Below, piece after piece: positions 1 to 52,510 of a stretch of DNA of 64,000 nt. Both the position numbers and the translations under genes were made by a program. The notes under the pieces were generated by a model. That model searched no databases and was not told the origin of the DNA. It worked only from the letters and a program-made list of their open reading frames with translations. Source of the DNA: Sympetrum striolatum (lineage: Eukaryota; Arthropoda; Insecta; Odonata; Libellulidae); contig OX388350.1 of NCBI GenBank assembly GCA_947579665.1, positions 82,975,152-83,039,151 on the forward strand, given 5' to 3'. How positions within the stretch are numbered: the stretch's first letter is position 1; each line of letters opens with the position of its first letter.

Positions 1-930
1 CCGACTCTCATTGTCAATTTACGCCTAAATTAAACACCCTTTGATGGCTGCTAAGCCGGTCGACTTATCAAAATATGTCGAGGAAAATAGAGGAATACGT
101 AGTGCAAAATATGTGCTTCGGTTTTCTCCTTTATTTAATTCTGAGAATGTAGTAGACCCATACGAATGTAAACTACACTCAAGTAGTTTGAAATATACGA
201 CCTTCTAACTTTCTTAGTTTTCAACATAAAAATCACAGCATACGCGACAACTAAATAATTTTAAACAAAAATACAATTTGTGCTGCGATCGGAACCTCTC
301 TTTCGCTGAATTTTGACTTCAAGTCAATACACTCCTATCAATGTTCTCCTAATATAATCAAAAAAATAACATTCGGGTTGTGGTCGGTGGCGTCTTGCAA
401 CGGCGTTTTCTAAGAACCAGTGAAACCGAAAGTTAATTCTTATCAGTTTATAATTCATCAGTAAACCAGGAGTATCCCCTTCCCGAGACGCGTATTTCGA
501 GGGTCGTCAGGAGGGCCAAAACACAGAAGTAACGAACCACTGGTGGATGAAGAACGCTCATCAAAACTTGTGCTTCGTACATCTCGATCCCGAAAAGGCA
601 ATTAAATGTTCTGTTGCAGCCTAATTGGGCAAATGATTTTCTCAACGTGAATTATAGACGCAAGATACGAAATTTACACAAAAATTAGGATATTTGAGGA
701 TTAATTGCGAATAATATGCTAACAACCAAAATAATGATTACCGCACACCTCGTGGTATTGACTGCTATACATGTGAACGTGTTGAATTTGTTGTTTAGTC
801 CACAGTTCCTCGAAATGAAGTAGAAAGAGGAATTCAAAAGGTAAAGCCTACTGCTTAAACCACAAGAATCATTACCTAGAGATTTTTAAAGCGTGCATAA
901 CGTGAAACCCTCAGGAAATGAAGGAATTAG
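1..930. other. Unassigned AT-rich DNA
   Basis: I see no gene or recognisable repeat here. The longest open frame is 65 codons on the minus strand (448-645), has no family resemblance and is of a length expected by chance in this composition. Confidence 0.5.
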
Positions 931-934
931 GGGT

Positions 935-1165
935 CATGGGCTCGATCTCAGGAGGCACCAAAATCCCTATTTTATTCCAAGAATGTATTGCATGGATTTC
1001 GGGATTTCTTCGAGGCGCTTATGTTAGAAAGTTGTAATTCAATTTATGGCTAAAAGCTAATCATAAAATAAAAGCGAAAAAACTAAGACATTTTCGAAGA
1101 TTATCTTCGGCTCGACGCTTGGTCTTTCCGTAAAAAATGCATCGTTTGCAGAATAAAAAGTGAAA
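935..1165 (+). repeat. Fossil F-E monomer pair of the B-box array family
   Basis: This stretch aligns by eye with the F then E monomers of the main array. The box CATGGGCTCGATCTCAGG at 939-945 is followed by a CCAAAATCCC tract, an ATGTATTGCATGGATTTCGGGATTT tract broken by changes, and a GAGGCGCTT that matches GAGGCACTTCCCGG. A second box, GGCTCGACGC, sits at 1109-1115 and is followed by AAAAAATGCAT. Both cores read GGCTCGA rather than GGTTCGA, and their spacing is 170 against 176 in the array. The identification rests on ordered short matches, not on a computed alignment. Confidence 0.55.
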
Positions 1166-5040: not shown

Positions 5041-6051
5041 ATAAAGATGGACCAAATCTTTTCTAGAAAACAGATCTCAGCGAGTTGCGTTAGATGGAGT
5101 TTTATCCGAAGAAATAAGTATCTCATCAGGAGTTCCACAGGGAAGTGTTCTTGGTCCAATCTTATTTCTAATTTACATTAACGACCTCGTAGATAACGTA
5201 AAGAGTAAGGTTAGATTATTTGCCGATGATACCCTGATATACAGAGAGATTTTGACAGAAAACGATTGTAATGTGCTTCAAGACGACCTGGATGTAATAT
5301 CAGGATGGTGTAAAGATTGGCAGCTGGATTAAAATATAAATAAATGCGTTGCCATGAGTTTTACGCGCTCCACAAACATAATTCCCACGCAGTACCAAAT
5401 CTCAGGTCATCCATTAGAGTTAGTTCACGACAACAAATACCTAGGAGTCACGTTTAGCAGTAACTTATCTTTTAAAGAACATATTCGAGATGCGATAGGA
5501 AAAGCGAATAGAATGCAAAGATTAACTGGTAGAACGTTGAGAGGATGCTCATCGAGAGTCAAAGAAATAGCTTACTTTTCTCTTATTCGTCCGAGTCTTG
5601 AATACTGCTGTGCGGTTTGGGACCCACACGAAGTAGGTTTAGTCTCAGATTTAGAGATGGTCCAGCGTAGAGCAGCCCGATTCGTTTGCGGGGATTTCAG
5701 GTTTGATAGCAGCGTTACGGCAATGATAGAGTCCCTCGGTTGGAATTCACTACAGATGAGAAGATCTGAATATCGTCGGAAACTTTTCGAAAAGTTCAAT
5801 CGTTCAGAATTTATAGACGAAGTAAGTGAAATGTTAGTGCCAGTAAGGAGCGAACGCGATCTCCGAGAGGCATCGACGAAGCGTTATAGGGAAGTAATCG
5901 CAAGGACGGATAATTACTTTTGGTCGTTTTTTCCCCAAGCTATTAGAGATGCTAATAGGTAGGAATGAATAATGGTGGTGTATTACACCCCCTGCCATAC
6001 GCCTATGGCGGCTCGCGGGGTATATATCTAAATCTAAATCTAAAATCTAAA
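5041..6051 (+). mobile_element. 5'-truncated non-LTR retrotransposon (CR1/Jockey-like LINE)
   Basis: This is the 3' part of a LINE: the second half of the reverse transcriptase, a C-terminal region, a short 3' UTR, and a tail of repeated ATCTAA units at about 6020-6051. The 3' UTR contains a stem-forming tract, CCCCCTGCCATACGCC then TATGGCGGCTCGCGGGG. The microsatellite-like tail rather than poly(A) is typical of the CR1/L2 and related groups. The left edge coincides with the end of the foldback at 5039, so the 5' part is either truncated or displaced. Two other fragments of the same family lie at 29369-29560 (minus) and 41461-41740 (plus). Confidence 0.9.
5048..5962 (+). pseudogene. LINE reverse transcriptase, C-terminal portion, one in-frame stop
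   Basis: A single frame runs from about 5048 to the TAG at 5960-5962. Its only interruption is a TAA at 5330-5332, where family members usually have leucine (context WQLD*NINKC). Visible reverse-transcriptase motifs in order are FLENRSQRV, SSGVPQGSVLGPILFLIYIN (from 5123), the catalytic FADDT (5219-5233), and NKYLGVTFSSNLSFKEHI. A C-terminal stretch with LRPSLEYCCAVWDP-type sequence and RRAARFV follows. The downstream 202-codon piece starts at the ATG at 5354, but that is only an internal methionine after the stop. No endonuclease domain is present. The near-intact frame suggests a fairly recent insertion. Confidence 0.9.
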
Positions 6052-8344: not shown

Positions 8345-8956
8345 GGGAAAACTAAAACCTCACTGCATTTCTTATGGAGATAACGGAAACCAATTTTAGG
8401 TACTTCCCGGCATGATATCAACGTCAAACTTTGCACTAAATAAGATCAAGTCCTAACAAGCTATAAATTGTATTCACAGCTGCCGATAGCTCCTGGGTTC
8501 GACATCAGGCATCTCTAAAATTAGTAACTGATATGATTTTTAAGATTTTATTTTTTGAACCATTTCCTGATAATATAGAAACTTTCAACTTGGCAAGTGA
8601 ATACAGATCGTAAATAAATTTCAATTAGGCTGTTTTAGGTTTCCTTGATCGTCCTTGGTTCGATCCCAGAGAGCCATTTACATTATCCCTATGCATTTAA
8701 GATGGGGATAATGGAGTCTTTTTTCAGGACCTTCCCGCTATGGTATGGACTTCAAACTTTGCATTAAATAAGATCAGGTCCTACCAAGTTATAATGTCTA
8801 TTCGCATCTGTCCAGGGATCGGCATCAAGTGTCTCAAATTTATAAATTGCTACGATTTTTAAGAATTTTTAACCCCTTTCCGATAACATTGAACCTTAAA
8901 ACTGGGCATGTCAATAAAGATTATAAATACATTTCATATGCTTGCAGTATGCAAGC
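8345..8956 (+). repeat. Array unit 0, partial and diverged, box on + strand
   Basis: It begins inside a D-type monomer (GCATTTCTTATGGAGATAAC at about 8374), then boxes at 8496-8502 (C type) and 8657-8663 (D/B hybrid: GGTTCGATCCCAGAGAGCC). A degenerate box GGATCGG lies at 8815-8821. Spacings are 161 and 158. It ends directly in the unit-terminal palindrome GCTTGCAGTATGCAAGC (8940-8956) without A or G monomers. It faces unit 1 head to head through a decayed copy of the terminal sequence (8957-8990). Divergence is higher than inside the array, as expected for an array edge. Confidence 0.8.
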
Positions 8957-8972
8957 AACTTTTATATTGGTA

Positions 8973-10050
8973 CAAGTAAAATGTAGCTTGCATACTGCAA
9001 GCAGATTGACAACACTAATTTCATAACGGCATTATGTCGGGACGGTCCCGGAAAGGAAAAAAAGGATTGAAAATATTCTTAAAATTCGCTTTAATTTAAT
9101 TTTTTGGCATCGAACCTGGGTCTTTTTGGTGAAATTTCTATGCAGCACATCAGAAGATCATCTTCTCTAAATAGGTGTGAAAATTCAAGCAGAAATATTG
9201 GCTGCAACTGCCTCAAACGAAGACCTACTTTTCACGAATGTTAATAGCTCTCTGGATTCGAACCAAGGCCGATCTAGGAAATATAAAATGTGTTTTCGAA
9301 ATGTATCTATATGTTCTATATATATGCCGAATTTCAAGTTTTAATATTATTGGGAAGGGGTTCAAGATAATTCTTAAAAATCGAATCAGCGACTGATTGT
9401 AGAGACGCCTGGTGTCGAACCCTGGACGTATTGGAAGCTGTTAATGCACAAAATTACTTGCTAGGACTTGATCTAATTTCATTCAAAGTTTGAAGTCGAT
9501 ATCATACCGGGAAGTACCTAAAATGTGTTTCTGTTATCCCCATAAGAAATGCATTGTGGAGTGCAAATGGCCCTCTGGGATCGAACCAAGGACCCTCAGC
9601 GAATATGTAAAATTTTATAATGAAATATATTTATGATTTCTAACCCCATGCCAAATTTCAAGTTTCCATGCATTCGGAAAGGGGTCCAAAAAAAATCTTA
9701 AAAATCGCCACAATGCATTTTAAACGGCCGATTTTTGCCCCGACCTAGCATCGAACCCAGGATATTTTCCGTTAAACCAATTTATGTTTTCGATAGATCA
9801 TGTTCATATATATAGGCTCCTTGAGTTTTAATTCTCTAACTATACGGGAAGTATTTTTTTTTAATTCCCGAAAATCAAAGCAATGCATTTAAACGGGAAA
9901 AATCGGGACTTTGGGGCCCTCTGGAATCGAACCCATGACACTGAGGATCAAAATCGCAATTTTTCTGGTGGTTACACGTTATGGCCAATATGCCGTAAAA
10001 ATTTCAGCTCAATCACTCTTGTGGTTTAGGCTGTGAGTTTGTATCCTCTC
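8973..10050 (-). repeat. Array unit 1, type I (A-B-C-D-E-F)
   Basis: Complementary cores (TCGAACC on the given strand) lie at A 9110, B 9258, C 9415, D 9581, E 9751 and F 9927, all exact. Spacings are 148, 157, 166, 170 and 176. It starts with the decayed end sequence CAAGTAAAATG and the palindrome GCTTGCATACTGCAAGC at 8986-9002, and ends at GTATCCTCTC before a (TA)n tract. Confidence 0.9.
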
Positions 10051-10126
10051 TATATATATATATATATATATATATCTATTATATATAGATGCTTCTCCGG
10101 ATTCATTCATGTATCCATATATATAT

Positions 10127-11202
10127 ACGAGTAAAATGTAGCTTGCATACTGCAAGCAGATCAGCAATACTAATTTCATATCGGCATCACATCGGGACGG
10201 TCCTCAAAAAGAAAAAAAGGATTTAATTTTTTCTTAAAATTCGCTGAAATTTCATCGTCTGCCATCGAACCCAGGTCTTTACTGTGAACTTACTATGCAG
10301 CACAATAGAACATCATCATCTCTAACTATGTGTAAAAATTCAAGCAGAAATATGGGCTACAACAGCCTCAAAAGACGTTCTAATTTTCACGAATTTAAAT
10401 GGCTCTCTGGATTCGAACCGAGGACGATTTTGGAAATCTAAAAAATGTTTCTGAAAGTTATTTATTATCTCTATCCATATGCCGAATTTAAAGTTTCTAT
10501 ATTATTGGCAAAGGTTTCAAAATAATTCCTAAAAATCGGATCAACTTCTGATTGCAGAGACACCTGGTGTCGATCCCAGGACACATTGATATCTGTGAAT
10601 ACACGGTTTGATTTGCACGGACTTGATCATTCTTTGTACAAAGTCTGAAGTCGATATCATGCCGGGAAGTACCTAAAACCTTTTTCCGTTATCTCCATAA
10701 GAAATGCATTGAGGAATGTAAATGGCTCTCTGGGATCGAACCAAGGACCATCAGCGAATATGTAAAATTTGATTATGAAATATATTTATGATCTCCAACT
10801 TCATGCCGAATTTCAAGTTTCCATGTTATCAGGAAGGGGTCCAAAAAAATCTTAAAAATCGCCACAATGTATTTTAAACGGCCGCTTTTTGCCTTGACCT
10901 TGCATCGAACCCAGGATATTTTCCGTAACACTCATTTATGTTTTCGATAGATCATAACCATATATATTGGCTCCTTGAGTTTTAAGTCCCTACCTATCCG
11001 GCAAGTATTTTTTAAAAATTCCCAAAAATCAACGCAATGCATTTAAATGGGAAAAATCGGGACTTTGGGGCCCTCTGGAATCAAACCCATGACACTGAGG
11101 TTCAAAATCACAATTTTTCTGGTGGTTACACGATATGGCCAATACGTCGTAAAAATTTCAAGCCGATGACGCTTGTGGTTTAGGCTGTGAATTAGTATCC
11201 TA
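10127..11202 (-). repeat. Array unit 2, type I
   Basis: Cores lie at A 10265, B 10413, C 10570 (mutated, GGATCGA in the sense reading), D 10736, E 10905 and F 11081 (mutated, GGTTTGA). Spacings of 148, 157, 167, 169 and 176 are kept across the mutated boxes. The unit starts ACGAGTAAAATG and carries the terminal palindrome GCTTGCATACTGCAAGC. Confidence 0.9.
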
Positions 11203-11228
11203 TCTATATACCTATCTATCTATTATAT

Positions 11229-12310
11229 ACGAGTAAAATGTAGCTTGCATACTGCAAGCAGATCGACAACACTAATTTCATCTCGGCATCATATCGGGAC
11301 GGTCCTCAAAAGAAAAAAAAGGGGATTGAAAATATTCTTTAAATTCGCTGCAAGTTATTCGTCCGGCATCGAACCCGGGTCTTTTTGGTGATACACACTA
11401 TGCAGCACAATAGAATTTCTCCATCTCTAATTATGTGTGAAAATTAAAGCAAAAATATTGGGCGCAGCTGCCTCAAAAGACGCTCTAATGTTCACGAATG
11501 TAAATGGCTCTCGGGACTCGAACCAAGGATGATCGTGGAAATTTAAAAAATGTTTCTAAAAGTTATTAATGATCTTAATCCCTATGCCACATTTCAAGTT
11601 TCTATATTATTGGGAAAGGTTTCAAAATAATTCCTAAAAATCGGATTAACTTCTGATTGCAGAGACACCTGGTGTCGAACCCAGGACACATTGATAGCTA
11701 TGAATGCATAGTTTGATTTGTTAAGACTGGTTCTTCTATCACGCTAAGTTTTAAGTCGATAGCATGCCGGGAAGAACCTAAAATTTGTTTCCGTTATCTC
11801 CATAAGAAATGCATTGAGAAATGTAAATGGCGCCCTGGGATCGAACCAAGGACCATCAGCGAATATGTAAAATTTGATTATGAAATATATTTATAATCTC
11901 CAACTCCATGCCGAATTTCAAGTTTCCATGCCATCGGGAAGGGGTCCAAAAAAAATCTTAAAAATCGCCACAATACATTTTAAACGGCCGATTTTTGCCT
12001 CGACCTAGCATCGAACCCAGGATATTTTCCGTAAAACTCATTTATGTTTTCGATAGATCATGACCATATATAAAGGCTCCTAGAGTTTCGATTCTCTACC
12101 TATACGGGAAGTATTTTTTAAAAATTCCCGAAAATCTAAGCAATGCATTTAAACGGGAAAAATTGGGACTTTGGGGCCCTCTGGAATCGAACCCATGACA
12201 CTGAGGTTCAAAATCGCAATTTTTCTGGAGGTTATACGTTATGGCCAATATGTCGTAAAAATTTCAAGCCATTGACGCTAGTGGTTTGGCCTGTGACTTT
12301 GTATCCTCTC
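11229..12310 (-). repeat. Array unit 3, type I
   Basis: Cores lie at A 11369, B 11518, C 11675, D 11841, E 12011 and F 12187, all exact; spacings are 149, 157, 166, 170 and 176. It follows unit 2 with only a short TA/TATC-rich joint (11203-11228) and no linker. Confidence 0.9.
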
Positions 12311-12377
12311 TATATATATATATCTATTATATATAGACGCTTCTCCGGATATACCTATATATAAGTTATATATATAT

Positions 12378-13453
12378 ACGAGTAAAATGTTGCTTGCATA
12401 CTGCAAGCAGATCGACAAAACTAATTTTATGGCGGCATCATATCGGGACGGCCATCAAAAGAAAAAAATGGATTGAAATTTTTCTTAAAATTAGCTGAAA
12501 TTCCATCGTCTGGCATCGAACCCGGGTCTTTACTGCGAACTTACTATGCAGCACAATAGAACATCACCATCACTAACTATGTGTGAAAATTCAAGCAGAA
12601 ATCTGGGCTACAACTGCCTCAAAAGACGTTCTAATTTTCACGAATTTAAATGGCTCTCTGGATTCGAACCAAGGACGATCTTGGAAATCTAAAACATGTT
12701 TCTGAAAGTTATTTATGATCTCTATCTATATGCCGAATTTCAAGTTTCTATATTATTGGGAAGGGGTTCAAAATAGTTCCTAAAAATTGAATCAATTACT
12801 GATTGTAGAGACGCCTGGTGTCGAACCCAGGACCTACTGGCAGCTGTGAAAACACATTATGACTTGGTTTGACCTGATCTTATTAATTGCAAAGTTTGAA
12901 GTCAACAACTTGCCAGGAAGTACCTAAAATTTGCTTCCGTAATCTCCATAAGAAATGCATTTTAGGATGTAAATTGCCCTCTGGGATCGAACCAAGGACC
13001 ATCAGCGAGCTCTAAAATTTTATTATGAAATATATTTATGATATATATCTACGTGCCAAGTTTCAAGTTTCCAAGTCATCTGTAAGTAATTAAAAAAAAT
13101 CTTAAAAATCGCTATGTAAATTAAACGGGAGAATATTTGCCCTGGCCTAGCATCGAACCAAGGATAATATTTGTAGATGTCTTTGTGGTTTTCTTTAGAT
13201 AAACACGGCATCTTGCGATCTCTAGAATTTCAACTCTCTTCTTTTCCGGGAAGTGCCTCAAAAAAATTTTCGAATATCCCCGCCATGTATTCTTATGGAC
13301 AAAATCGTGACTTTGGGGCCTTCTGGAATCGAACCCATGACACTGAGGTTCAAAGTCGGCTTTTTCCTGGAGGTTACACGTTATGGCCAATATGTCGTAA
13401 AAATTTCAAGTCGGTGGCACTTGTGGAACATGCTTATACTTTTGATCCCCAGT
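12378..13453 (-). repeat. Array unit 4, type I
   Basis: Cores lie at A 12516, B 12664, C 12821, D 12987, E 13153 and F 13329, all exact; spacings are 148, 157, 166, 166 and 176. Its F monomer and outer end (GTGGAACATGC...GATCCCC) are shared only with unit 5, which mirrors it across the joint at 13454-13511. The two therefore form a large inverted pair. Confidence 0.9.
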
Positions 13454-13511
13454 GTATATATATATATATAAGTATATCCGGAGAAGCGTCTATATATAAT
13501 AGATATATATA

Positions 13512-14588
13512 GGGGATCAAAAGTCTAACCATGTTCCACAAGTGCCACCGACTTGAAATTTTTACCACGTTATGGCCATGACGTGTAACCTCCAGGAAAA
13601 AGCCGACATTGACCCTCGGTGTCATGGGTTCGATTCCAGAAGGCCCCAAAGTCGCGATTTTGTCCATAAGAATACATGGCGGGGATTTTAGAAAAATATT
13701 TTGAGGCACTTCCCGGAAAAGGAGAGATTTGAAATTCAAGGGATCCCTAGATGCCGTGCATATCTAAAGGAAACCATAAAGACATCTACGAATATTATCC
13801 TTGGTTCGATGCTAGGTCGGGGCAAAAATCGGCCGTTTAAAATGCATTGTGGCGATTTTTAAGATTTTTTTTTGACCCTTTCCCGATGGCATAGAAATTT
13901 GAAATTCGGTATGAGGTTAGATACCATAAAAATATATCATAATCGAATTTTAAATATTCGCTGATGGTCCTTGGTTCGATCCCAGAGGGACATTTAAATT
14001 CCTCAATGCATTTCTTACGGAGATAACGGAAACAAATTTTAGGTACTTCCCGGAACGATATCGACTTCAAACTTTGCATATAGAAAGATCAAGTCCATTC
14101 AAATCAACCAGTGCATTCACAGCTATCAATGTGTCCTGGGTTCGACACCAGGTGTCTCTGCAATCAGAAGTTGATACGATTTTTAGGAATTATTTTGAAA
14201 TTTTGCCAATAATATAGAAACTTCAAATTCATCAGATAGATAGAGATCATAAATAACTTTCAGAAACATTTTTTAGATTTCCAAGATCGTCCTTGGTTCG
14301 AATCCAGAGAGCCATTTAAATTCGTGAAAATTAGAACGTCTTTTGAGGCAGTTGTAGCCCATATTTCTGATTGAATTTTCACATATAGTTAGAGATGGTG
14401 ATCTGCAATTGTGCTGCATAGTAAGTTTACAGTAAAGACCCGGGTTCGATGCCAGACGATGAAATTTCAGCGAATTTGAAGAAAAATTTCAATCCATTTT
14501 TTTCTTTTGATGGCCGTCCCGATATGATGCCTACATGGAAATAGTGTTGTCGATCTGCTTGCAGTATGCAAGCTACATTTTACTCGTA
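13512..14588 (+). repeat. Array unit 5, type I, mirror of unit 4
   Basis: Cores (GGTTCGA) lie at F 13627, E 13803, D 13973, C 14139, B 14295 and A 14443, all exact; spacings are 176, 170, 166, 156 and 148. It ends in the palindrome GCTTGCAGTATGCAAGC and ATTTTACTCGTA. Nine T residues at 13865-13873 lie about 56 bases after the E core. Confidence 0.9.
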
Positions 14589-14640
14589 TTATATATATAG
14601 ATGCTTCTCCGGATTCATTCATATATATAGCTATATAGAT

Positions 14641-15745
14641 AGGATACAAATTCACAGGCTAAACCACAAGCGTCATTGACTTGAAATTTTTATGACATAT
14701 TGGCCATAACGTATAACCCCCAGGAAAAAAGCGACTTTTATCCTCAGTGTCAAAGGTTCGATTCCAGAGGGCCCCAAATTCACGATTTTTCCCGTTTAAA
14801 TGCATTGCCGTGATTTTCGGAAATAAAAAAAAATAGTTTCCGGAAAGGCAGAGAAATAAAACTCAAGGTGCCTATATTTATGGTCTTGGACTTTCGAAAA
14901 CATCAATGACTTTCACAAAAAATATCCTGGGTTCGATGCTAGGACGATGCAAAGATCTGCCCTTTAAAATACATGGGAATTTTCATTATTTTTTTTGATA
15001 CACTTCTCGAAAAAATAGGAAGTTCGTGCTTAGCCGGAAAGTGTAAGGTAAGAATTGGTTTGAGAAAAAATTTTTCATAAGACCGTACTATTCCTGGGTT
15101 CGATGCCAGAGCACATTAACATATCTCTCATAAGGAATATAAGGGAAAAGTAAGACTTCGATTGAGGCAGTTGCAGCCAATATTTCTGCTTGAATTTTCG
15201 CACATAGTTAAAGAATAATATCTTCTATTATGTTGCATAGGAAGTTTCACCAGAAAGTCCCGGGTTCGATGCCGGGCGGTAAATATGTCTCCCGTTTAAA
15301 AAACATAGGGTTTGTATTTCAATATTTTTTTGATGCACTTATCGAAATGATAGGAAGTTCGTGCTTTGCTGGAAGATGTATGGTTAAAATTGGTTTAAGA
15401 AAACAGTTTTCAGAAGACCGTAATATCCTGGGTTCGATGCCAGACCACATTAACATTTCTCTCATAAGAAATATAAGGGAAAAGTAGGACGTCGTTTGAT
15501 GCAGTTTCAGATAGTATTTCTGCTTGAATTTTGACAGATAGTTAGAGATGGTGATCTTCTATTGTGCTGCATAGTAAGTATCACTGGGAAGACCCGGGTT
15601 CGATGCCGGACTAATAAATTGCAGCGAATAATCAGAATATTTTCAATGCATCTTGTTTTTCTTTTGACGGCCTTCCCGAAATGATGCCGACATGAAATTA
15701 GTGTTGTCGATCTGCTTGCAGTATGCAAGCTACATTTTACTCGTA
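14641..15745 (+). repeat. Array unit 6, type II (F-E-G-A-G-A)
   Basis: Cores lie at F 14755, E 14930, G 15097, A 15263, G 15431 and A 15597, all exact; spacings are 175, 167, 166, 168 and 166. The D, C and B monomers of type I are replaced by a duplicated G-A dimer. The A box at 15263 has the symmetrical form CCCGGGTTCGATGCCGGG. It still has six monomers. Confidence 0.9.
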
Positions 15746-15797
15746 TATATATATATACGAGTAATATGTAGCTTGCATACTGCAAGCAGATCGGCAA
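15706..15797. repeat. Head-to-head palindrome joining units 6 and 7
   Basis: The A ends of two units meet here. GCTTGCAGTATGCAAGC then TACATTTTACTCGTA is mirrored by TACGAGTAATATGTA then GCTTGCATACTGCAAGC, with only TATATATA between. One mismatch (AATATG against AAAATG) breaks perfect symmetry. Reading on into both units extends the inverted relationship through their A monomers (units 6 and 7), though those are more diverged. Confidence 0.9.
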
Positions 15798-16835
15798 TAC
15801 TAATTTCATATCGGCATCATATCGGGAATGTCCTCAAAAGAAAAAAAAAGGATTGAAATTTTTCTTAAAATTCGCTGAAATTTCATCGTCTGGCATCGAA
15901 CCCGGATCTTACTGGTGAACTTACTATGTAGCACAATAGAAGATCACCATCTCTAACTATGTGTGAACTTCAAGCAGATATATTGGCTACAACTGCCTCA
16001 AAAGACGCTCTAATGTTCACGAATGTAAATGGCTCTCGGGACTCGAACCAAGGACGATCTTGGAAATTTAAAAAATGTTTCTGAAATTTATTAATGATCT
16101 CAATCCATATGCCAAATTTCAAGTTTCTATATTATTGGGAAAGGTTTCAAAATAATTCCTAAAAATCGGATCAACTTCTGATTGCAGAGACACCTGGTGT
16201 CGAACCCAGGACTCTTTGATAGCTGTGAATGCACTGTTTGATTTTTATGGACTTGATCTTTGTACATGCAAAGTTTGAAGTTGATATCGTGCCGGGAAGT
16301 ACCTAAAATTTGTTTCCGTTATCTCCGTAAGAAAAGCATTGGGAAGTGCAAATGGTCCTCTGGGATCGAACCAAGGACCATAAGCTAATATGTAAAATTC
16401 GATTATGAAATAAATTCATGATATCTATCGACGCGCCGAGTTTCAATAATCCATGTTATCGGGAAAGGATCCAAAAAAAATCTTAAAAATCGCCGCAATG
16501 CATTTTAAACGGCCGATTTTTGCCCCGGCCTAGCATCAAACCAAGGACCATATTCGAAGATGTCTTTCCTATTTTCGTTGGCTATGCACGGCATTTAGCG
16601 GTCCCTAGAGTTTCAACTCTCTGCTTTTCCGGGAAGTGCCTCAAAAAAATTTTCGAAAATCCCCGCCATGTAATCTTATGGGGAAAATCGCGACTTTGGG
16701 GCCCTCTGGAATCGAATCCATGACACTGAGGTTCAAAATCGCAATTTTTCTGGAGGTTACACGTCATGGCCATAACGTCGTAAAAATTTCAAGTTAATGA
16801 CGCTTTTGGTTTAGCCTGTGAATTTGTATCCTATC
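15757..16835 (-). repeat. Array unit 7, type I
   Basis: Cores lie at A 15896, B 16043, C 16200, D 16366, E 16536 (mutated, GGTTTGA) and F 16712 (mutated, GATTCGA); spacings are 147, 157, 166, 170 and 176. It faces unit 6 head to head, the two ends joined by the palindrome ACTCGTATATATATACGAGT-like tract at 15738-15761. Confidence 0.9.
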
Positions 16836-16942
16836 TGGGTATATATATGAATGAATCCGGAGAAGCATCTATATATAATAGATAGATGCTTCTCCGGATT
16901 CATTCATATATCATATATTCATATATATATATATATATAGAG

Positions 16943-18020
16943 AGAGGATACAAAGTCACAGGCTAAACCACTAGCGTCAATGGCTTGAAATTTTTACGAC
17001 ATATTGGCCATAACGTATAACCTCCAGAAAAATTGCGATTTTGAACCTCGATGTCATGGGTTCGATTCCAGAGGGCCTCAAAGTCCTGATTTTTCCCGTT
17101 TAAATGCATTGCTTTGATTTTCGGGAATTAAAAAAAAATACTTTCCGGATAGGTAGAGAATCGAAACTCAAGAAGCCTATATATATGGTCGGGATCTATC
17201 GAAAACATATATGAGTTTCACGGAAAATATCCTGGGTTCGATGCTAGGTCGAGGCAAAATTCGGCCGTTTAAAATGCATTGTGACGATTTTTAAGATTTT
17301 TTTTGGACCCTTTCCCGATGGCATGGAAACTTGAAATTCGGCATGGAGTTGGAGATCAATAATTAATTTTAGGATCAAATTTTACATATTCGCAGATGGT
17401 CCTTGGTTCGATCCCAGAGGACCATTTAAATTCCTCAATGCATTTCTTACGGAGATAACGGAAACAAATTATAGGTACTTCCCGGCACGATAAAGACTTC
17501 AAACTATGTATTAAGAGAGATTAAGTGTATACAAATCAAACTGTGCATTCCCAGCTGTCAATGTGTCCTTGGTTCGACACCAGGCGTTTCTACAATCAGT
17601 AACTGATCCGATTTTCAATAATTATTTTGAACCCTTTCCCAGCAATATAGAAACTTGAAATTCGGCATGTAGATAGAGATTATAAATAACTTTCAGAAAC
17701 ATATTTTAGGTTTCCATGATCGTCCTTGGTTCGAATCCAGAGAGCCATTTAAATTCGTGAAAATTAGAACGTCTTTTGAGGCAGTTGAAGCCCATATTTC
17801 TTCTTGAATTTTCACACATAGTTAGAGATGGCGATGTTCTATTGTGCTGCATAGTAAGTTCAACAGTAAAGACCCGGGTTCGTTGCCAGACGATGGAATT
17901 TCAGCGAATTTTAAGAAAAATTTCAATCCATTTTTTCTTTTGATGGCCGTCCCGAAATGATGCCGACATGAAAATAGTGTTGTCGATCTGCTTGCAGTAT
18001 GCAAGCAACATTTTACTCGT
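16943..18020 (+). repeat. Array unit 8, type I
   Basis: Cores lie at F 17059, E 17235, D 17405, C 17571, B 17728 and A 17877 (mutated, GGTTCGT); spacings are 176, 170, 166, 157 and 149. T runs follow several boxes: five at 17090-17094 after F, eight at 17297-17304 after E, six at 17931-17936 after A. It is tail to tail with unit 7 across a palindromic linker pair. Confidence 0.9.
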
Positions 18021-18082
18021 ATATAATAAGATATATAGATGCTTCTCCGGATTCATTCATGTATCCATATATATATATATAT

Positions 18083-19190
18083 ACGAGTAAAATGTAGCTT
18101 GCATACTGCAAGCAGATCGACAACACTAATTTCATACCGGCATCATATACCGGGACGGACATCAAAAGAAAAAAAAAATTCAAAATATTCGTAGAATTCG
18201 CTGCAATTTAATCACCTGGCAGCGAACCCCGGTCTTCCTGGTGTACTTACTATGCAGCAAAATAGAAAATTACTATATCAAACTATGTGTGAAAATTCAA
18301 GCAAAACTATTAGGTGCAACTACCTCAAACGACGTCCTACTATTCACATACACTCCTTATTTGAGAAATTATAATGTGCTCTGGCATCGAACCCAGGAAC
18401 AGCATGGTCTTATCTATTTTTTTTCTTAAACAAAGTGTTAATATACATCTTCCATCTAAGCAAGAGCTCCCTTACATATCGATAAATGCATAAAAAAATT
18501 ATGAAAAGATACCCCATAGTATTATATATGGGTGATATTTTTACTGCCCGGCATCGAACCCGGGTCTTTCAGGCAATACTTTCTATGCAGCACAAAAGAA
18601 AAACACCATCTCTAACCGCGTATGCAAATTCAAGCAGAAATATTGGTTACAACTGCCTCAAATGACGTCCTACTTTTCCTTTATATTCCTTATGAGAGAA
18701 ACGTTATTGTGCTCTGGCTTCGAACCCAGGAACAGTACGGTCTTATGAAAATTTTTTTCTAAAACTTATTCGTACCATACATCTTCCAGCCAAGCACGAA
18801 CATCCTATCATTTCGATAAGTGCATCTAAAAAAATAATGAAAAACGGCTCCCATGTATTTTAAAGGGCAGATCTTTGCATCGTCCTAGCATCGAACCCAG
18901 GATAACTTTTGTAAAAGTCATTGATGTTTTCGAAAGTCCAAGACCATAAATATAGGCACCTTGAGTTTTACTTCTCTACCTATCCAGAAAGTATTTTTTT
19001 TTAATTCCCGAAAATCACGGCAATGCATTCAAACGGGAAAAATCGGGACTTTGGGGCCCTCTGGAATCGAACCTATGACACTGAGGATCAAAGTCTCTTT
19101 TTTCCTGGGGGTTTCACGTTATGGCCAATATGTCATAAAAATTTCAGATCAATGACGCTTGTAGTTTAGGCTGTGAATTTGTATCCTATC
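18083..19190 (-). repeat. Array unit 9, type II (A-G-A-G-E-F)
   Basis: Cores lie at A 18222 (mutated, GGTTCGC), G 18387, A 18554, G 18720, E 18891 and F 19067; spacings are 165, 167, 166, 171 and 176. The G boxes read CTGGCATCGAACCCAGGAAC and a close variant with CTTCGA. Confidence 0.9.
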
Positions 19191-19246
19191 TATCTATATA
19201 GGTATATATATGAATGAATCCGGAGAAGCATCTATATATAATAGAT

Positions 19247-20328
19247 ACGAGTAAAATGTAGCTTGCATACTGCAAGCAGATCGGCAATACTAATTTCATA
19301 TCGGCATCACATCGGAACGGTCCTCAAAAGAAAAAAAAAAAGGATTGAAATTTTTCTTAAAATCCTCAGACATTTCACCGTCTGGCATCAAACCCGGATC
19401 TTTTCTGTGAACTTACTATGCAGCACAATTGAAGATTACCATCTCTAACTATGTGAGAAAATTCAAGCAGAAATATTGGCTAAAACTGCCTCAAAAGCCG
19501 TTCTAATTTTCACGAATGTAAATGGCTCTCTGGATTCGAACCAAGGACGATCTTGAAAATCTAAAACATGTTTCTGAAATTTTTTAATGATCTCTATCTA
19601 GTTGCCGAATTTCAAGTTTCTATATTATTAGGAAAGTTTTCAAAATATATCCTAAAAATAGGATCAACTTCTTATTGCAGAGACACCTGGTGTCGAACCC
19701 AGGACACATTGATAAAAGCGAATGCACAGTTTGATTTGTAAAGACTTGTTCTTTTATCATGCAAAGTTTGAAGTCGATAACATGCCGGGAAGTACGTAAA
19801 TTTTGTTTCCGCTATCGCCGTAAGAAATGCATTGAGAAGTGCAAATGGCCCTCTGGGATCGAACCAAGGACCATCAGCGAACATGTAAAATTTAATTATG
19901 AAATATATGCAACATATATATCCACGTGCCGAGTTTCAAGTATCTATGTTATCGGGAAAGGATCCAAAAAAAATCTTCAAATTCGCCACAATGCATTTTA
20001 AACGGCCGATTTTTGCCCCGACCTAGCATCGAACCATGGACCATATTCGGCGATGTCTTTTTTAATTTCGTTGGATATGCATGGCTTCTAGCGATCCCTC
20101 GAATTTAAACTCTCTCCAATTCCGGGAAGTGCCTCAAAAAAATTTTCGAAAATCCCCGCCATGTATTCTTATGGGGAAAATCGCGACTTTGGGGCCCTCT
20201 GGAATCAAACCCATGACACTAAGGTTCAAAATCGCAATTTTTCTGTTGGTTATACGTTATGGCCAATACGTCGTAAAAATTTCAAGCCGATGACGGATCT
20301 AGTTTAGGCTGTGAATTAGTATCCTATC
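19247..20328 (-). repeat. Array unit 10, type I
   Basis: Cores lie at A 19388 (mutated, GGTTTGA), B 19536, C 19693, D 19859, E 20029 and F 20205 (mutated, GGTTTGA); spacings are 148, 157, 166, 170 and 176. A (TATC)n tract follows at about 20325-20347. Confidence 0.9.
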
Positions 20329-20391
20329 TATCTATCTATCTATCTATATCCTTGAATGAATCCGGAGAAGCATCTATATTTAATAGATATA

Positions 20392-21500
20392 GAGAGGATA
20401 CAAACTCACAGCCTAAACCACTAGAGTGATTGAGCTGAAATTTTTACGGCGTATTGGCCATAACGTGCAGCCACCAGAAAAATTGCGGTTTTGATCCTCA
20501 GTGTCATGGGTTCGATTCCAGGGGGCTCCAAAGTCCCGATTTTTCCCGTTTAAATGCATTGCTTTGATTTTCGGGAATTAAAAAAAAATACTTCCCGGAT
20601 AGGTAGAGAAACAAAACTCAAGGAGCGTTTATATATGGTCATGATCTATCGAAAACATAAATGAGTTTTACGGAAAATATCCTGGGTTCGATGCTAGGTC
20701 GAGGCAAAAATCGGCCGTTTAAAATGCATGGGGATAGTTTTTCATTAATTTTTTTGATGCACTTATCGGTATGTAAGGAACTTTTCGCTCACCTAGAAGA
20801 TATATATTAAGAATTTGTTTAAGAAAAAAAATTTCATGAGCCAGTTATATTCTTTGGTTCGATGCCAGAGCACATTAACATTTCTCTCATAAGGAATATA
20901 AGGGAAAAGTAAGTCGTCGTTTGAGGCAGTTGCAGCCAATATTTCTGCTTTAATTTTCGCATATGGTTAAAGAATGTGATCCTCTATAGTGCTGCATAGA
21001 AAGTATTACCAGAAAGACCCGGGTTCGATGCCGGGCGGCAAATATGTCTCCCGTTTAAAATACATTGGGTTAGTATTTCATTATTTTTTGATGCACTTAT
21101 CAAAATGATAGGAAGTTCGTGCTCGGCTGGAAAATGTATAAAAAGAATTGGTTTTAGAAAAAAATTTTCATAAGCCCGTACAATTCCTTGGTTCGATGCC
21201 AGAGCACATTAAATTTTCTCTCATAAGGAATACATGGGAAAAGTAGGACGTCGTTTGAGGCAGTTGCACCCAATATTTCTGCTTGAAATGTCACACATAG
21301 TTAGAGGTGGTGATTTTCTGTTGTACTGCATAGGACGTATTACCAGAAAGACCCGGGTTCGATGCCAGACGATTAATTTGCAGCGAATTTTAAGAATATT
21401 TTCAATCTTTTTTTTTCTTTTAAGGGCCGTCCCGATATGATGCTCATATGAAATAACTGTTGTCGATCTGCTTGCAGTATGCAAGCTACATTTTACTCGT
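20392..21500 (+). repeat. Array unit 11, type II (F-E-G-A-G-A)
   Basis: Cores lie at F 20509, E 20685, G 20856, A 21022, G 21190 and A 21356, all exact; spacings are 176, 171, 166, 168 and 166. It has the same composition as units 6 and 9, so type II is a repeated unit form and not a one-off rearrangement. Confidence 0.9.
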
Positions 21501-21590
21501 ATATATATATGAATGAATCCGGAGAAGCATCTATATCTATTATATATAGATGCTTCTCCGGATTCATTCATGTATCCATATATATATATA

Positions 21591-22613
21591 GCGAGGATAC
21601 AAATTCACAGGCTAAACCACAATCGTCATTGACCTGAAATTTTTACGACATATTGGCCATAACGTATAACCTCCAGAAAAATTACGATTTTGAACCTCAG
21701 TATCATTGGTTCGATTCCAGAGGGCCCCAAAGTCCCGATTTTTCCCGTTTAAATGCATAGCCATGATTTTCGGGAATTTTTAAAAAATACTTCCCGGATA
21801 GGTAGAGAATATAAACTCATGGAGCCTATATATATAGTCATGATCTATCGAAAACATAAATGAGTTTCACCGAAAATATCCTGAGTTCGATGCCAGGTCG
21901 AGGCAAAAATCGGCCCTTTAAAATGCACTGTGGCGATTTTTAAGTTTTATTTTGGACCCTTTCCCGATGGCAAGGAAACTTGAAATTCGGCATGAGGTTG
22001 GAGATCATACATATATTTCATAATCAAATTTTATATATTCGCTGACAGTCCTTGGTTCGATCCCAGAGGGCCATTTACATTCCTCCATGCATTTCTTATG
22101 GAGATAACAGTAAAAAGTTTTAGGTACTTCCCGGCATGATATCAACTTCAAAATTTGTATGAAATAAGATCAAGTCTTCATAAATCAAATTGTGCATTCA
22201 CAGCTACCAATATTTCCTCGGTTCGCCACCAGGCGTCTCTACAATCAGTAAATTAACCGATATTTAAGAATTAATTTAAACCCCTTCACAATAATATTAG
22301 AACATGAAATTAGGCATATAGATAGAGAACTTAGATACATTTCAAAAACGTGTTTTAAATTTCCTAGATCGTCCTTGGTTCGAATCCAGAGAGCCATTTA
22401 CTTTATTGAAAAGTAGGACGTCGTTTGAGGCAGTTGGAGCCAATATATCTGCTTGAATTTTCACACATAGTAAGAAATGGTGTTTTTCTGTTGTGCTGCA
22501 TAGTAAGTTCACCATTAACACCCAGGTTCGATGGACGGCCTTCCCGATATGATGCCGACATGAAATTAGTGTTTTCGATCTGCTTGCAGTATGCAAGCTA
22601 CATTTTACTCGTA
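21591..22613 (+). repeat. Array unit 12, type I with deletion in A
   Basis: Cores lie at F 21708, E 21884 (mutated, AGTTCGA), D 22054, C 22220 (mutated, GGTTCGC), B 22377 and A 22525; spacings are 176, 170, 166, 157 and 148. Just after the A core the sequence jumps from GGTTCGATG to GACGGCC, an internal deletion of roughly 65 bases relative to unit 13. Confidence 0.9.
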
Positions 22614-22626
22614 TAATAGATATATA

Positions 22627-23708
22627 GAGAGGATACAAACTCACAGCCTAAACCACAAGAGTGATTGAGCTGAAATTTTTACGGAGTATTGGCCATAACG
22701 TGTAACCACCAGAAAAATTGCGATTTTACACCTCAGTGTCATGGGTTCGATGCCAGGGGGCTCCAAAGTCCCGATTTTTCCCGTTTAAATGCATTGCTTT
22801 GATTTTCGGGAATTTAAAAAAAATACTTCCCGGATAGGTAGAGAATCAAAACTCAAGGAGCCTTTATATATGGTCATGATCTATCGAAAACATAAATGAG
22901 TTTTACGAAAAATAACCTGGGTTCGATGCTAGGTCGATGCAAATATCTGCCGTTTAAAAAGCATTGTGGCGATTTTTAAGATTTTTTTTGGACCCTTTCC
23001 CGATGGCATGGAAACTTGAAATTCGGTATGAGGTTAGATATCATAAATATATTTCATAGTCGATGTTTATGCTTTCCCTGATGTTCCTTGGTTCGATCCC
23101 AGAGGGCCATTTACATTCCTCAATGCATTTCTTATGGAGATAACGGAAACAAGTTTAAGGTACTTCCCGGCATGCTATCGACTTAAAACTTTGCATGATA
23201 GAAGATCCAGTCTTAACAAATCTAACTATGCATTCATAGCTATCAATGTGTCCTGGGTTCGACACCAGGTGTCTCTGCAATCAGAAGTTGATCCGATTTT
23301 TAGGAATTGTTTTGAAACCTTTCCCAATAATGTAGAAACTTGAAATTAGGCATATAGATTGAGATCAATAATAACTTTCAGAAAAATTTTTTAAGTTTCC
23401 AAGATCGTCCTTGGTTCGAGTCCCGAGAGCCATTTACATTCGTGAATATTAGAACGTCTTTTGAGGCAGTTGTAGCCAATATTTCTGCTTGAATTTTCAC
23501 ACATAGTTAGAGATGGTGATCTTCTATTGTGTTTCATAGTAGGTTTTCAGTAAGACCCGGGTTCGATTCCAGACGATGAAATTTCAGCGAATTTTAAGAA
23601 AAAATTAAATCCTTTTTTTTTTTCTTAAGAGGACCATCCCGATATGATGCCGATATGAAATTAGAATTGCCGATCTGCTTGCAGTATGCAAGCAACATTT
23701 TACTCGTA
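22627..23708 (+). repeat. Array unit 13, type I
   Basis: Cores lie at F 22744, E 22920, D 23090, C 23256, B 23413 and A 23560, all exact GGTTCGA; spacings are 176, 170, 166, 157 and 147. The B box has GGTTCGAGTCC in place of GGTTCGAATCC. It follows unit 12 with a 13-bp joint and no linker. Confidence 0.9.
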
Positions 23709-23800
23709 TGATATATGAATGAATCCGGAGAAGCATCTATATATAATAGATATATATATAAATGGATACATGAATGAATCCGGAGAAGCATCTATATATA

Positions 23801-24880
23801 ACGAGTAAAATGTTGCTTGCATACTGCAAGCAGATCGACAACACTATTTCCATGTCGGCATCATATCGGGACGGCTATCAAGAGAAAAAAATGGAATGAA
23901 ATTTTTCTTAAAATTCGCTGAAATTCCATCGTCTGGCATCAAACCCGTGTCTTTACTGTGAACTTACTATGCAGCACAATCGAACATCACCATCTCTAAC
24001 TATGTGTGAAAATTCAATCAGAAATATGGGCTACAACTGCCTCAAAAGACGTTCTAATTTTCACGAATTTAAATGGCTCCCTGGATTCGAACCAAGGACG
24101 ATCTTGAAAATCTAAAAAATGTCTTTGAAAGTTATTTATGATCTCTATCTATTTGCCAAATTAGAAGTTTCTATATTATTGGCAAAGGTTTCAAAATAAT
24201 TCCTAAAAATCGGATCAACTTCTGATTGCAGAGACACCTGGTGTCGAACCCAGGACACATTGAAAGCTGTGAATGCATTGTTTGATTTGTATGGACTTGA
24301 TATTTCAATATGCAAAGTTTGAAGTCGATATCGTGCCGAAAAGTACCTAATATTTGTTTCCGTTATCTCCGTAAGAAATGCATTGAGGAATTTAAATCTC
24401 CCTCTGGGATCGAACCAAGGATCATCAGCGAATATGTAAAATTCGATTATGATATATTTTTATGGTATCTAACTTCATATCGAATTTCAAGTTTCTATGC
24501 CATCGGAAAAGGGTCCTAAAAAAATCTTAAAAATCGCCACAATGCATTTTAAACGGCCGATTTTTGCCCCGACCTAGCATCGAACCAAGGATAATATTCG
24601 TAGATGTCTTTATGGTTTCCTTTAGATATGCACCGCATCTAGGGATCCCTTGAATTTCAAATCTCTCCTTTTCCGGGAAGACCCTCAAAAAAATTTTCAA
24701 AAATCCCCGCCATGTATTCTTATGGACAAAATCGCGACTTTGGGGCCTTCTGGAATCGAACCCATGACACCTAGGTTCAAAATCACATTTTTTCTGGCGG
24801 TTACACGTTATGGCCAATACGTCGTAAAAATTTCAGGTCAATGACGATTGTGGTTTAGCCTGTGAATTTGTATCCTCGCT
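23801..24880 (-). repeat. Array unit 14, type I
   Basis: Cores lie at A 23939 (mutated, GGTTTGA), B 24087, C 24244, D 24410, E 24580 and F 24756; spacings are 148, 157, 166, 170 and 176. It faces unit 13 head to head, with two same-direction linkers (about 23726 and 23779) between them. Confidence 0.9.
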
Positions 24881-24935
24881 ATATATATATATGGATACAT
24901 GAATGAATCCGGAGAAGCATCTATATATAATAGAT

Positions 24936-26015
24936 ACGAGTAAAATTTAGCTTGCATACTGCAAGCAGATCGGCAATACTAATTTCATATCGGCATCATA
25001 TCGGGAATGTCCTCAAAAGAAAAAAAAAGGATTGAAATTTTTCTTAAAATTCGCTGAAATTTCATCGTCTGGCATCGAACCCGGATCTTACTGGTGAACT
25101 TACTATGTAGCACAATAGAATATCACTATCTCTAACTATGTATGAAAATTCAAGCAGAAATATTGGCTACAACTGCCTCAAAAGACGCTCTAATGTTCAC
25201 GAATGTAAATGGCTCTCGGGAGTCGAACCAAGGATGATCTTGGAAATTTAAAAAATGTTTCTGAAATTTATTAATGATCTCAATCCATATGCCAAATTTC
25301 ACGTTTCTATATTATTGGGAAAGGTTTCAAAATAATTCCTAAAAATCGGATCAACTTCTGATTGCAGAGACACCTGGTGTCGAACCCAGGACACATTGAT
25401 AGCTATGAATGCATAGTTTGATTTTTTAGGACTGGTTCTTTTATCACGCTAAGTTTTAAGTCGATAGCATGCCAGGAAGTACCTAAAATTTGTTTCCGTT
25501 ATCTCCATAAGAAATGCATTGAGAAATGTAAATGGCGCCCTGGGATCGATCCAAGGACCATCAACGAATATGTAAAATTCGATTATGAAATATATTTATA
25601 ATCTCCAACTCCATGCCGAATTTCAAGTTTCCATGCCATCGGGAAAGGGTCGAAAAAAAATCTTAAAAATCGCCACAATGCATTTTAAACGGCGGATTTT
25701 TGCCTTGACCTAGCATCGAACCCAGCTTATTCTCCGTAAAACTCATTTATGTTTTCGATAGATCATAACCATATATAAAGGCTCCTAGATTTTGGATTCT
25801 CTACCTATCCCGGAAGTATTTTTTAAAAATTCCCGAAAATCAAAGCAATGCATTTAAACGGGAAAAATCGAGACTTTGGGGCCCTCTGGAATCGAACCCA
25901 TGACACTGAGGTGCAAAATCGCTTTTTTCCTGGCGGTTACACTCTATGGCCAATATGTCGTAAAAATTTCAAGTCAATGACGCTTGTGGTTTGGCCTGTG
26001 AGTTTGTATCCTCTC
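24936..26015 (-). repeat. Array unit 15, type I
   Basis: Cores lie at A 25075, B 25223, C 25380, D 25546 (mutated, GGATCGA), E 25716 and F 25892; spacings are 148, 157, 166, 170 and 176. Its A and B monomers are nearly identical to those of unit 7, which suggests exchange or duplication between non-adjacent units. Confidence 0.9.
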
Positions 26016-26092
26016 TATATATATATATATATGAATATATATATGGATACATGAATGAATCCGGAGAAGCATCTATATATAATAGATATATT

Positions 26093-26785
26093 TAGGATAC
26101 AAATTCACAGGCTAAACCACAAGCGTCATTGTCTTGAAATTTTTATGGCGTATAGGCCATAACGTGAAACCCCCAGGAAAAGTGAGAAATCGCTCATTCT
26201 GACCATGTGTTCGATCCCATAAGGCCCCAAAATCCCGATTTTTCCCATTTAAATGCATTGATTTAATTTTCGGGTATTTCAATAAAATACTTCCCGGATA
26301 GGTAAAGAATCAAAACTCAAGGCATACAGATATGGTAATGATCTATAAAAAACATTAATTTTTTTAACAGAAGATGTCCTGGGTTCGATGCTTGGACGAT
26401 GCAAAAATCTTTCTTTTAAAATACTTTGGGGTAATTTTTCATTTGTTTTGATGCACTTATCGAAATGACAGGAAGTTCTTGCTTTGCTAGAAGACATATA
26501 TTAAGATTCGGTTTAAGAACAAAATTTAGATAAGACCATACTGTTCCTGGGTTCGATGCCAGAGCACATTAATATTTCTCAAATAAAGAATATAAGGGAA
26601 AAGTAGGACGTCGTTTGAGGCAGTTGCAGCCAATATTTCTGCTTGAGTTTTCACATATAGTTAGAGATGGTGATTTTCTGTTGTGCTCCATAGTAAGTAT
26701 GGCCAGAAAGACCCGGGTTCGATGCCGGACGTTAATTGTAACTCCCATTTAAAACATATTGGTTGAATTTTCATAATTCTTTCGG
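26093..26785 (+). repeat. Array unit 16, truncated type II (F-E-G-A), right edge of array
   Basis: Cores lie at F 26208 (mutated, TGTTCGA), E 26382, G 26550 and A 26716; spacings are 174, 168 and 166. Similarity stops at about 26785, just after the last A monomer begins its second half, and unique-looking sequence follows. Divergence is higher than in the interior, as at the left edge. Confidence 0.85.
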
Positions 26786-33049: not shown

Positions 33050-33150
33050 GCCTCGCAGAGGCAACTTCGCACGTGAACTATGAAAGCACTCGAGGAGAAA
33101 TTGTGACTGGTCCGAGACTCGAACCAGGACCCCCAAGTTGTTTCCAATCC
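33050..33150 (-). mobile_element. Possible tRNA-derived SINE head
   Basis: On the minus strand, CCTGGTTCGAGTCTCGGACC forms a T-arm-like B box with a complementary flank, and ATAGGATTGG about 35 bases upstream resembles a weak A box. Edges and tail are not defined. It could also be a chance or decayed tRNA-like remnant. Confidence 0.45.
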
Positions 33151-50104: not shown

Positions 50105-50450
50105 TCGGACGATGTTTGAGGCAGTTGTAGCCAATAATTCTGCTTGAATTTTCACACATAGCTAGAGATGGTGATATTCTGTTGTGCTTCGTAGTAAGTT
50201 TCACTAGGAATACCCGGGTTCGATGCTGGACGGTAAATTGGGTAGTACATTGGGACGGTACATTGGGGTAGTATTTCATTTTTTTATGCACTTATCGAAA
50301 TGATACATAGTTTTTGCTTTGCTAGAAGATATATATTAAGACTCGGTTTAAGGAAAAAATTTAGATAAGACCATGCTGTTCCTGGGTTCGATGCCAGAGC
50401 ACATTAATATTTCTCACATAAGGAATATATGTTAAAGGTAGGACTTCGTT
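50105..50450 (+). repeat. Dispersed A-G fragment of the B-box array family
   Basis: The sequence TTTGAGGCAGTTGTAGCC, then AGAGATGGTGATATTCTG, leads to the A box CCCGGGTTCGATGCTGG (core 50217-50223) and on to the G box CCTGGGTTCGATGCCAGAG (core 50385-50391). Spacing between cores is 168, the same as A-to-G spacing inside the array. A short local duplication (GGTAGTACATTGGGACGG-like) lies after the A box. It ends in a (TA)n tract at about 50457. It is 23 kb beyond the array edge and is isolated. Confidence 0.85.

Positions 50451-52431: not shown

Positions 52432-52510
<79 letters not shown>

Follow-up and report, generated by a model that had tools for sequence, protein, structure and literature searches.

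A satellite-like cluster of putative Helitron-like elements with a B-box core in each of six modules in the dragonfly Sympetrum striolatum

The array at positions 8345-26785 of a 64,000-nucleotide stretch of chromosome 10 of Sympetrum striolatum (assembly GCA_947579665.1, contig OX388350.1, positions 82,975,152 to 83,039,151; the whole stretch is called the window here) is very probably a nest of non-coding, non-autonomous copies of a Helitron-like rolling-circle element, in which a short box core would act as a cis-acting site for multiplication. A copy consists of six diverged modules of about 165 bp each, with one same-strand B-box core per module, between defined ends. Tens of thousands of such 3' ends are dispersed in the genome, the clusters are drawn from a genome-wide pool, and the box core is constrained in the lineages that spread.

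In the proposed mechanism, each new copy would insert, in either orientation, between an A and a T, for the most part within the TA-rich end of an older copy, and repeated nested insertion would build clusters that mimic a higher-order satellite. Rolling-circle copying would be carried out by a helper protein encoded elsewhere, and the box core would be read by a DNA-binding protein, most simply TFIIIC, or else by the helper or another factor. After insertion, copies and their boxes would decay freely.

Boxes and modules of the array

An earlier note on this DNA counted 97 boxes by eye. A weight-matrix scan places 95 in the array, with a spacing of 147-176 bp inside units, and two marginal boxes, one cut by a deletion at 22525 and a degenerate one read by eye near 8805, would bring the number to 97. 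The note's figure of 83 exact GGTTCGA in the array was reproduced on recount (94 in the window, 11 of them outside the array). The exact B box GGTTCGANNCC occurs 68 times in the window, 66 of these within the array, and shuffling of the window yields a mean of 0.25 and a maximum of 2 (100 shuffles). Per monomer, GGTTCGANNCC is matched in 66/95 and the looser GWTCRANNC in 84/95. The constant core reads CC-N-N-GGTTCGA-N-N-CC-N-G, and it fits the B-box consensus, whose specified positions are the ones that stay constant. CpG shows no depletion, with observed/expected ratios of 1.03 in the array and 1.08 outside.

The monomers fall into seven types that are 31-52% identical between types and 75-87% within them. 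They follow a strict module order, F-E-B-A-D-C, with a variant order F-E-G-C-G-C. The 16 F modules correspond to 16 units, 15 of which extend to the 3' hairpin. The units stand in both orientations, in eight orientation runs, and are separated by TA-rich spacers of 6-114 bp. In this respect the array is unlike alpha satellite, to which the earlier note had likened it.

Ends of the element

Two single copies, each the sole unit in a fetched stretch of 4.5 kb, display the whole element: an A, then TCTATTATATATAGATGC, a TA tract, GAGAGGATACAAA, the six modules, GCTTGCAGTATGCAAGC and the terminal TACATTTTACTCG, followed by a T. End statistics were collected from 27 sequences (the window and 26 other loci), with the 5' end piece matched at no more than two substitutions. 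The 5' terminus is TC in both isolated copies and in the 103 matches to the 5' end piece, the preceding base is A in 102/103, and the base following the 3' end is T in 142/142. The 3' palindrome GCTTGCAGTATGCAAGC, 17 nt long and 13 nt from the 3' end, is exact in all 92 complete copies compared. Copies followed from end to end (n = 50) have a median length of 1,143.5 bp (range 302-1,218), a full copy being about 1.14 kb. Among 127 copies uncut by the ends of their loci, 108 are complete, 11 lack the 3' part, five the 5' part and three both. Between the end regions of the unit, tested without its TA-rich 5' piece, the longest inverted repeat, found in module sequence, measures 12 bp and includes one mismatch.

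According to the account in PMC4067079, a canonical Helitron has a 5' TC, a 3' CTRR, a palindrome of 16-20 nt situated about 11 nt before the end, and inserts between A and T without duplication; insect Helitrons with a CTRY 3' end are on record in PMC6544945. Because the 3' end here is CTCG instead of CTRR, the family is classed as Helitron-like and not as a canonical Helitron. Assignment to the HINE/Helentron group, whose subterminal inverted repeats are given as about 11-15 bp in the descriptions at hand, was rejected: insertion is between A and T, not into TT, and such repeats were not found between the end regions tested, again without the TA-rich 5' piece. The hairpin 'arm' in the spacers was also considered as a separate, independently flipping element, but the isolated copies show that the arm is the element's own 5' end.

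Copy number and dispersal

Genome searches covered the window's own assembly (1,349,600,149 bases in 544 contigs). The unit query gave 8,628 first-look candidates, and the 40 of these that were scored match at 96-100% identity over about 1.1-1.2 kb, with places on several chromosomes, including X. A 22-bp pattern of the 3' hairpin has 30,570 exact occurrences in the genome, a count that excludes copies with an altered hairpin, and its backwards control has none. If each exact 3' end stands for one copy of about 1.1 kb, the family is estimated to make up roughly 2.5% of the genome. This dispersal tells against the satellite reading of the earlier note.

For comparison, 26 of the 39 scored places besides the window were used, namely a first set of 20 and then six picked for having few listed neighbours; L016 and L017 of the first set are adjoining stretches of one site. 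At least two units are present in 20/20 loci of the first set, and the six further loci comprise four clusters and the two single copies described above. Of the 59 tails among the matches listed for the initial 0.44 Mb of chromosome 1, all but two (57) have another tail within 6 kb. An apparent strand domain in the first 2.85 Mb of that chromosome is not claimed: all 41 listed hairpin places above 1 Mb are on the '+' strand, the reverse places end at 0.44 Mb, and the gaps agree with '-' copies being missing, so the pattern is probably an effect of the listing. A 19-mer of the hairpin was also met in viral (one locus) and prokaryote (three loci) contigs, where no likeness extends past about 28 bp among the matches listed, and this is put down to chance; the 18-bp box core is absent from the viral contigs searched.

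Clusters as pooled insertions

Neighbouring units in the window are no more alike than any two units (mean identity 0.751 against 0.758; permutation p 0.65). Each of the 20 loci of the first set holds a copy that is 98.1-99.9% identical to copy 3 of the window, with different neighbours. Among the 92 complete copies, the nearest relative lies in the same cluster in four cases, where 4.2 are expected, and mean identity is 0.860 within clusters and 0.867 between them. The 70 bystander copies, which are those not targeted by the search, give the same result (4/70, expected 3.4). Since relatives share a cluster at the expected rate and copy 3 has close likenesses in 20 loci, the clusters are drawn from a genome-wide pool. 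Growth of a satellite by local tandem duplication was rejected, the neighbours being no more alike than distant copies. The alpha-satellite-like higher-order array of the earlier note is, on this evidence, a set of copies of a dispersed mobile unit with Helitron-like ends. As such, a self-nested mobile element can mimic an alpha-satellite higher-order array, which serves as a warning.

The sites entered were examined at 103 5' ends, of which 68 adjoin the end-like sequence of another copy (one mismatch in 12 bp was allowed, and the figure may be generous), 22 a pure TA run and 13 neither. Elsewhere in the window, a pure TA microsatellite of 39 units lies at 52434-52511, and no element copy was found inside it.

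Constraint on the box

In the window, the mean mismatch to the type consensus is 0.020 in the box 7-mer, 0.039 in the 17-bp core and 0.132 elsewhere, and no other 17-bp stretch of the monomer varies as little as the core. Differences shared between copies are five times rarer in the core (0.018) than in the rest (0.093). Across the 92 complete copies, variants above 10% amount to 0.049 per column in the core and 0.268 in the rest (p 1.2e-5), whereas differences confined to a single copy occur at 0.0061 and 0.0059, respectively. The box 7-mer is exact in 506/552 boxes, against a mean of 55% for other 7-mers. The most constant stretch overall is the 3' hairpin, a result that the picking of complete copies favours.

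The bystander copies separate common from single-copy variation in the same way. Common variants number six in the 102 core columns, none in the 54 columns of specified B-box positions and 291 in the remaining 938 columns (p 1.5e-5 for the core and 2.1e-5 for the specified positions), while singletons number 54, 25 and 514 in the same column sets. Against random windows, the p values are 0.00015 for common variants and 0.49 for singletons. With positions counted from the first G of GGTTCGA as 0, variation within the core falls at -1, 7 and 11, and the specified bases 0-6 and 9-10 are fixed in all six types and nearly invariant.

The lack of common variants at the specified positions, together with singletons near the background rate, indicates that the box matters for spreading and not for a host role of the array. 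Read plainly, a lineage requires the box as long as it is multiplying, and copies already in place can let it decay; this speaks against the array owing its conservation to a host function. Selection for a boundary, tethering or centromere role of the array, the roles that the earlier note had raised, is accordingly not supported, because the boxes of placed copies mutate at about the background rate.

Weighing the explanations

One alternative, an alpha-satellite-like array with a centromere or boundary function and the box in the role of a CENP-B box, is highly improbable. The monomers are indeed nucleosome-sized and set in a higher-order unit, Meloidogyne satellites likewise combine diverged monomers with a conserved 17-bp core in the accounts at hand (PMC3694981, PMC9673304), and the boxes match 10-12 of the 17 bases of the human CENP-B box. 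However, shuffled boxes reach 10/17 in 12% of cases, and the nine essential bases of CENP-B have no match in the array at one mismatch or fewer, so identity with the CENP-B box was rejected. The dispersal of the copies, the ordinary likeness of neighbours and the free decay of boxes in placed copies also speak against a satellite. Retroposition of the unit from an RNA polymerase III (Pol III) transcript, whether of Pol III genes or of a giant short interspersed element (SINE), with the hairpin and TA tail as the end recognised by the reverse transcriptase of a long interspersed element (LINE), is improbable too. It would account for the B boxes and for a 3' hairpin followed by a TA-rich run, and in each of the 16 F modules the box is preceded by an A-box-like stretch with one mismatch, something that chance could give. 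Yet an exact A box occurs in 0/95 monomers (2.4 expected by shuffling) and a one-mismatch form in 29/95 (36 expected), and the unit consensus contains T runs of 5 to 8, which would stop Pol III. The 5' part is rarely missing, unlike in LINE-type insertion, and the strict placement between A and T is a Helitron trait. With the A box not above chance, no tRNA and no Rfam family at the gathering threshold, a full Pol III unit or SINE was rejected, and the dense set of small Pol III units suggested by the earlier note is likewise not supported. At E values up to 1, Rfam gave 69 matches, all below gathering; almost all are microRNA precursors at palindromic junctions, and none is a tRNA.

A different alternative keeps the mobile element and changes the reader. 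The box may be recognised by a helper that belongs to the element (a Rep/helicase or accessory factor) and be repeated in the manner of the iterons of rolling-circle replicons, its likeness to a B box being coincidental, and this is a serious possibility that stops a little short of likely. The constant core is longer than a B box, with C at -4 and -3 and G at 12. Partial dyad symmetry of at least four pairs is present in 73% of boxes and in 17% of the other places compared. Moreover, no exact A box accompanies the boxes, and the constraint belongs to propagating lineages. On the other side, the positions fixed in all six types are those specified by the B box, whereas -1, 7 and 11 vary, and the description of canonical Helitrons in the sections of PMC4067079 at hand is without repeated internal sites. 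TFIIIC is the first guess for the reader because the box is fixed, and free to vary, in the same positions as a B box, and its role as such is a plausible prediction from the sequence.

Several observations weigh against the Helitron-like explanation of the array or against its account of the box. At the 3' terminus the four bases are CTCG, not CTRR, in 132/134 copies, with CTAG and CTTG once each. The flanks are TA-rich, and a TA duplication in them would be indistinguishable from the target. The 5' piece stands in native orientation directly upstream of only 55 of 119 heads, with 38 inverted upstream and 26 absent, and 11 of 21 young copies start inside the TA tract and are preceded by an inverted piece, which is only partly explained. 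Orientation within clusters is not random, as 95/130 junctions keep direction. For the box, single-copy differences in the window are 1.7 times rarer in the core than in the rest (0.021 and 0.037; p 0.0007), boxes D and C are less constrained (0.065 and 0.059, against 0.086 overall), and the constancy of the boxes is equalled by some non-box windows.

Features of the window

The copies and related features are collected in Table 1. The interval 13451-13511 is the junction of a head-to-head pair from a subfamily with the head GGGGATCAAAAG and a variant 5' end piece. The fragment at 50107-50450 has both ends apparently at the same repeat phase, near TAGGACGTCGTTTGAGG, where D and G modules also merge, and it could be a re-inserted circle. 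Outside the array, GGTTCGA at 7999 and 60497 (+) and at 33119, 39273 and 53267 (-) has surroundings that, on reading, resemble B boxes of tRNA-derived SINEs. A LINE remnant lies at 5045-5962 (+), with RVT_1 at E 7.9e-13 in 5045-5329 and an open piece at 5333-5959 without a Pfam match. A 167-aa open frame at 27734-28234 (-) has a sub-threshold Pfam match to DUF6776 (E 0.0031) that is probably due to chance.

Table 1. Element copies and related features, in positions of the window.
Feature	Position	Strand	Remarks
Cluster of element copies	8345..26785	.	Left truncated remnant, 15 copies with first module and 3' hairpin, one right-truncated copy
Old degenerate copy	8345..8968	+	B, A and B-like modules and tail hairpin
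First exact GGTTCGANNCC of array	8657..8667	+	
Copy 1, F-E-B-A-D-C	8969..10046	-	GGATAC to tail TATA; TA-rich 5' end beyond
Copy 2, F-E-B-A-D-C	10124..11200	-	
Copy 3, F-E-B-A-D-C	11226..12306	-	
3' terminal hairpin of copy 3, GCTTGCAGTATGCAAGC	11239..11261	+	Other strand shown; 16 such sites in window
Copy 4, F-E-B-A-D-C	12375..13450	-	Alternative head GGGGATCAAAAG
Copy 5, F-E-B-A-D-C	13512..14590	+	Alternative head GGGGATCAAAAG
Copy 6, F-E-G-C-G-C	14642..15747	+	
Copy 7, F-E-B-A-D-C	15754..16831	-	
Head-to-head junction	16832..16945	.	5' end pieces of two copies facing
Copy 8, F-E-B-A-D-C	16946..18023	+	
Copy 9, F-E-G-C-G-C	18080..19186	-	
Copy 10, F-E-B-A-D-C	19244..20324	-	
Copy 11, F-E-G-C-G-C	20396..21503	+	
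Copy 12, F-E-B-A-D-C	21595..22615	+	Deletion directly 3' of C box
Copy 13, F-E-B-A-D-C	22631..23710	+	
Copy 14, F-E-B-A-D-C	23798..24875	-	
Copy 15, F-E-B-A-D-C	24933..26011	-	
Copy 16, F-E-G-C	26095..26785	+	Right end truncated, without tail
Last exact GGTTCGANNCC of array	26716..26726	+	
Isolated F-module fragment	856..973	+	71% identical, weaker relative
Isolated two-module fragment	50107..50450	+	C and G types

Possible role of TFIIIC

It is conceivable, if rather doubtful, that the family has recruited TFIIIC, with the six bound boxes of a copy aiding rolling-circle copying. Such aid could consist of open chromatin, or of stalled replication forks exposing single strands. About 180,000 TFIIIC sites would then be strewn through the genome in clusters, a number sufficient to influence nuclear organisation or to set up competition with tRNA genes for TFIIIC. 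The testable question is whether TFIIIC, a general host factor, serves the transposition of a DNA element that is not itself a Pol III gene, and the size of the family would allow it to serve as a reservoir of B boxes. Rolling-circle elements with satellite-like repeats are known; here, selection preserves one motif per module in spreading lineages. The literature searches made brought up no paper on B boxes in Helitrons or on satellites with this layout; dragonfly repeat libraries were not searched and may list the family without this feature.

Comparison with known systems

Among satellites, those of Meloidogyne come close, as described in PMC3694981 and PMC9673304: diverged monomers of about 170 bp (32-64% and 36-74% alike) form higher-order units with one short conserved box, and a transposition-like process has been proposed for them. 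The Meloidogyne box was compared to the CENP-B box, whereas the box here agrees with the B box, in a unit that is mobile in its own right and has defined ends. Similarly, the macro-dyad satellites of Tribolium madens, in the account of PMC13081366, form long arrays with units that change direction; these are locally amplified and pericentromeric, in contrast to the pooled insertions found here.

Canonical Helitrons, as far as PMC4067079 and PMC6544945 describe them, share with this family the 5' TC, insertion between A and T, a 3' palindrome in the same size range, the lack of a visible terminal inverted repeat, and non-coding copies that far outnumber any helper. Compared with those descriptions, the present family differs in ending in CTCG and not CTRR or CTRY, in its six conserved box-bearing modules, and in how strongly its copies nest within one another's TA-rich ends. 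The Pacific oyster Cg_HINE and the pearl/BIV160/Cg170 repeats are also alike in the accounts of PMC7492417 and PMC5139131, being rolling-circle non-autonomous elements with satellite-like monomers of about 160-170 bp, conserved monomer segments, a left-flank microsatellite, a 3' palindrome and a dispersed distribution. They insert at TT or in T-rich sequence and carry subterminal inverted repeats, whereas insertion here is between A and T, and no B-box role for their repeats came up in the parts of PMC7492417 and PMC5139131 at hand. Internal satellite-like repeats in rolling-circle elements are already known, as PMC7492417 reports; no Helitron-like family with a B-box core under selection in each of six modules was met in the literature searches made.

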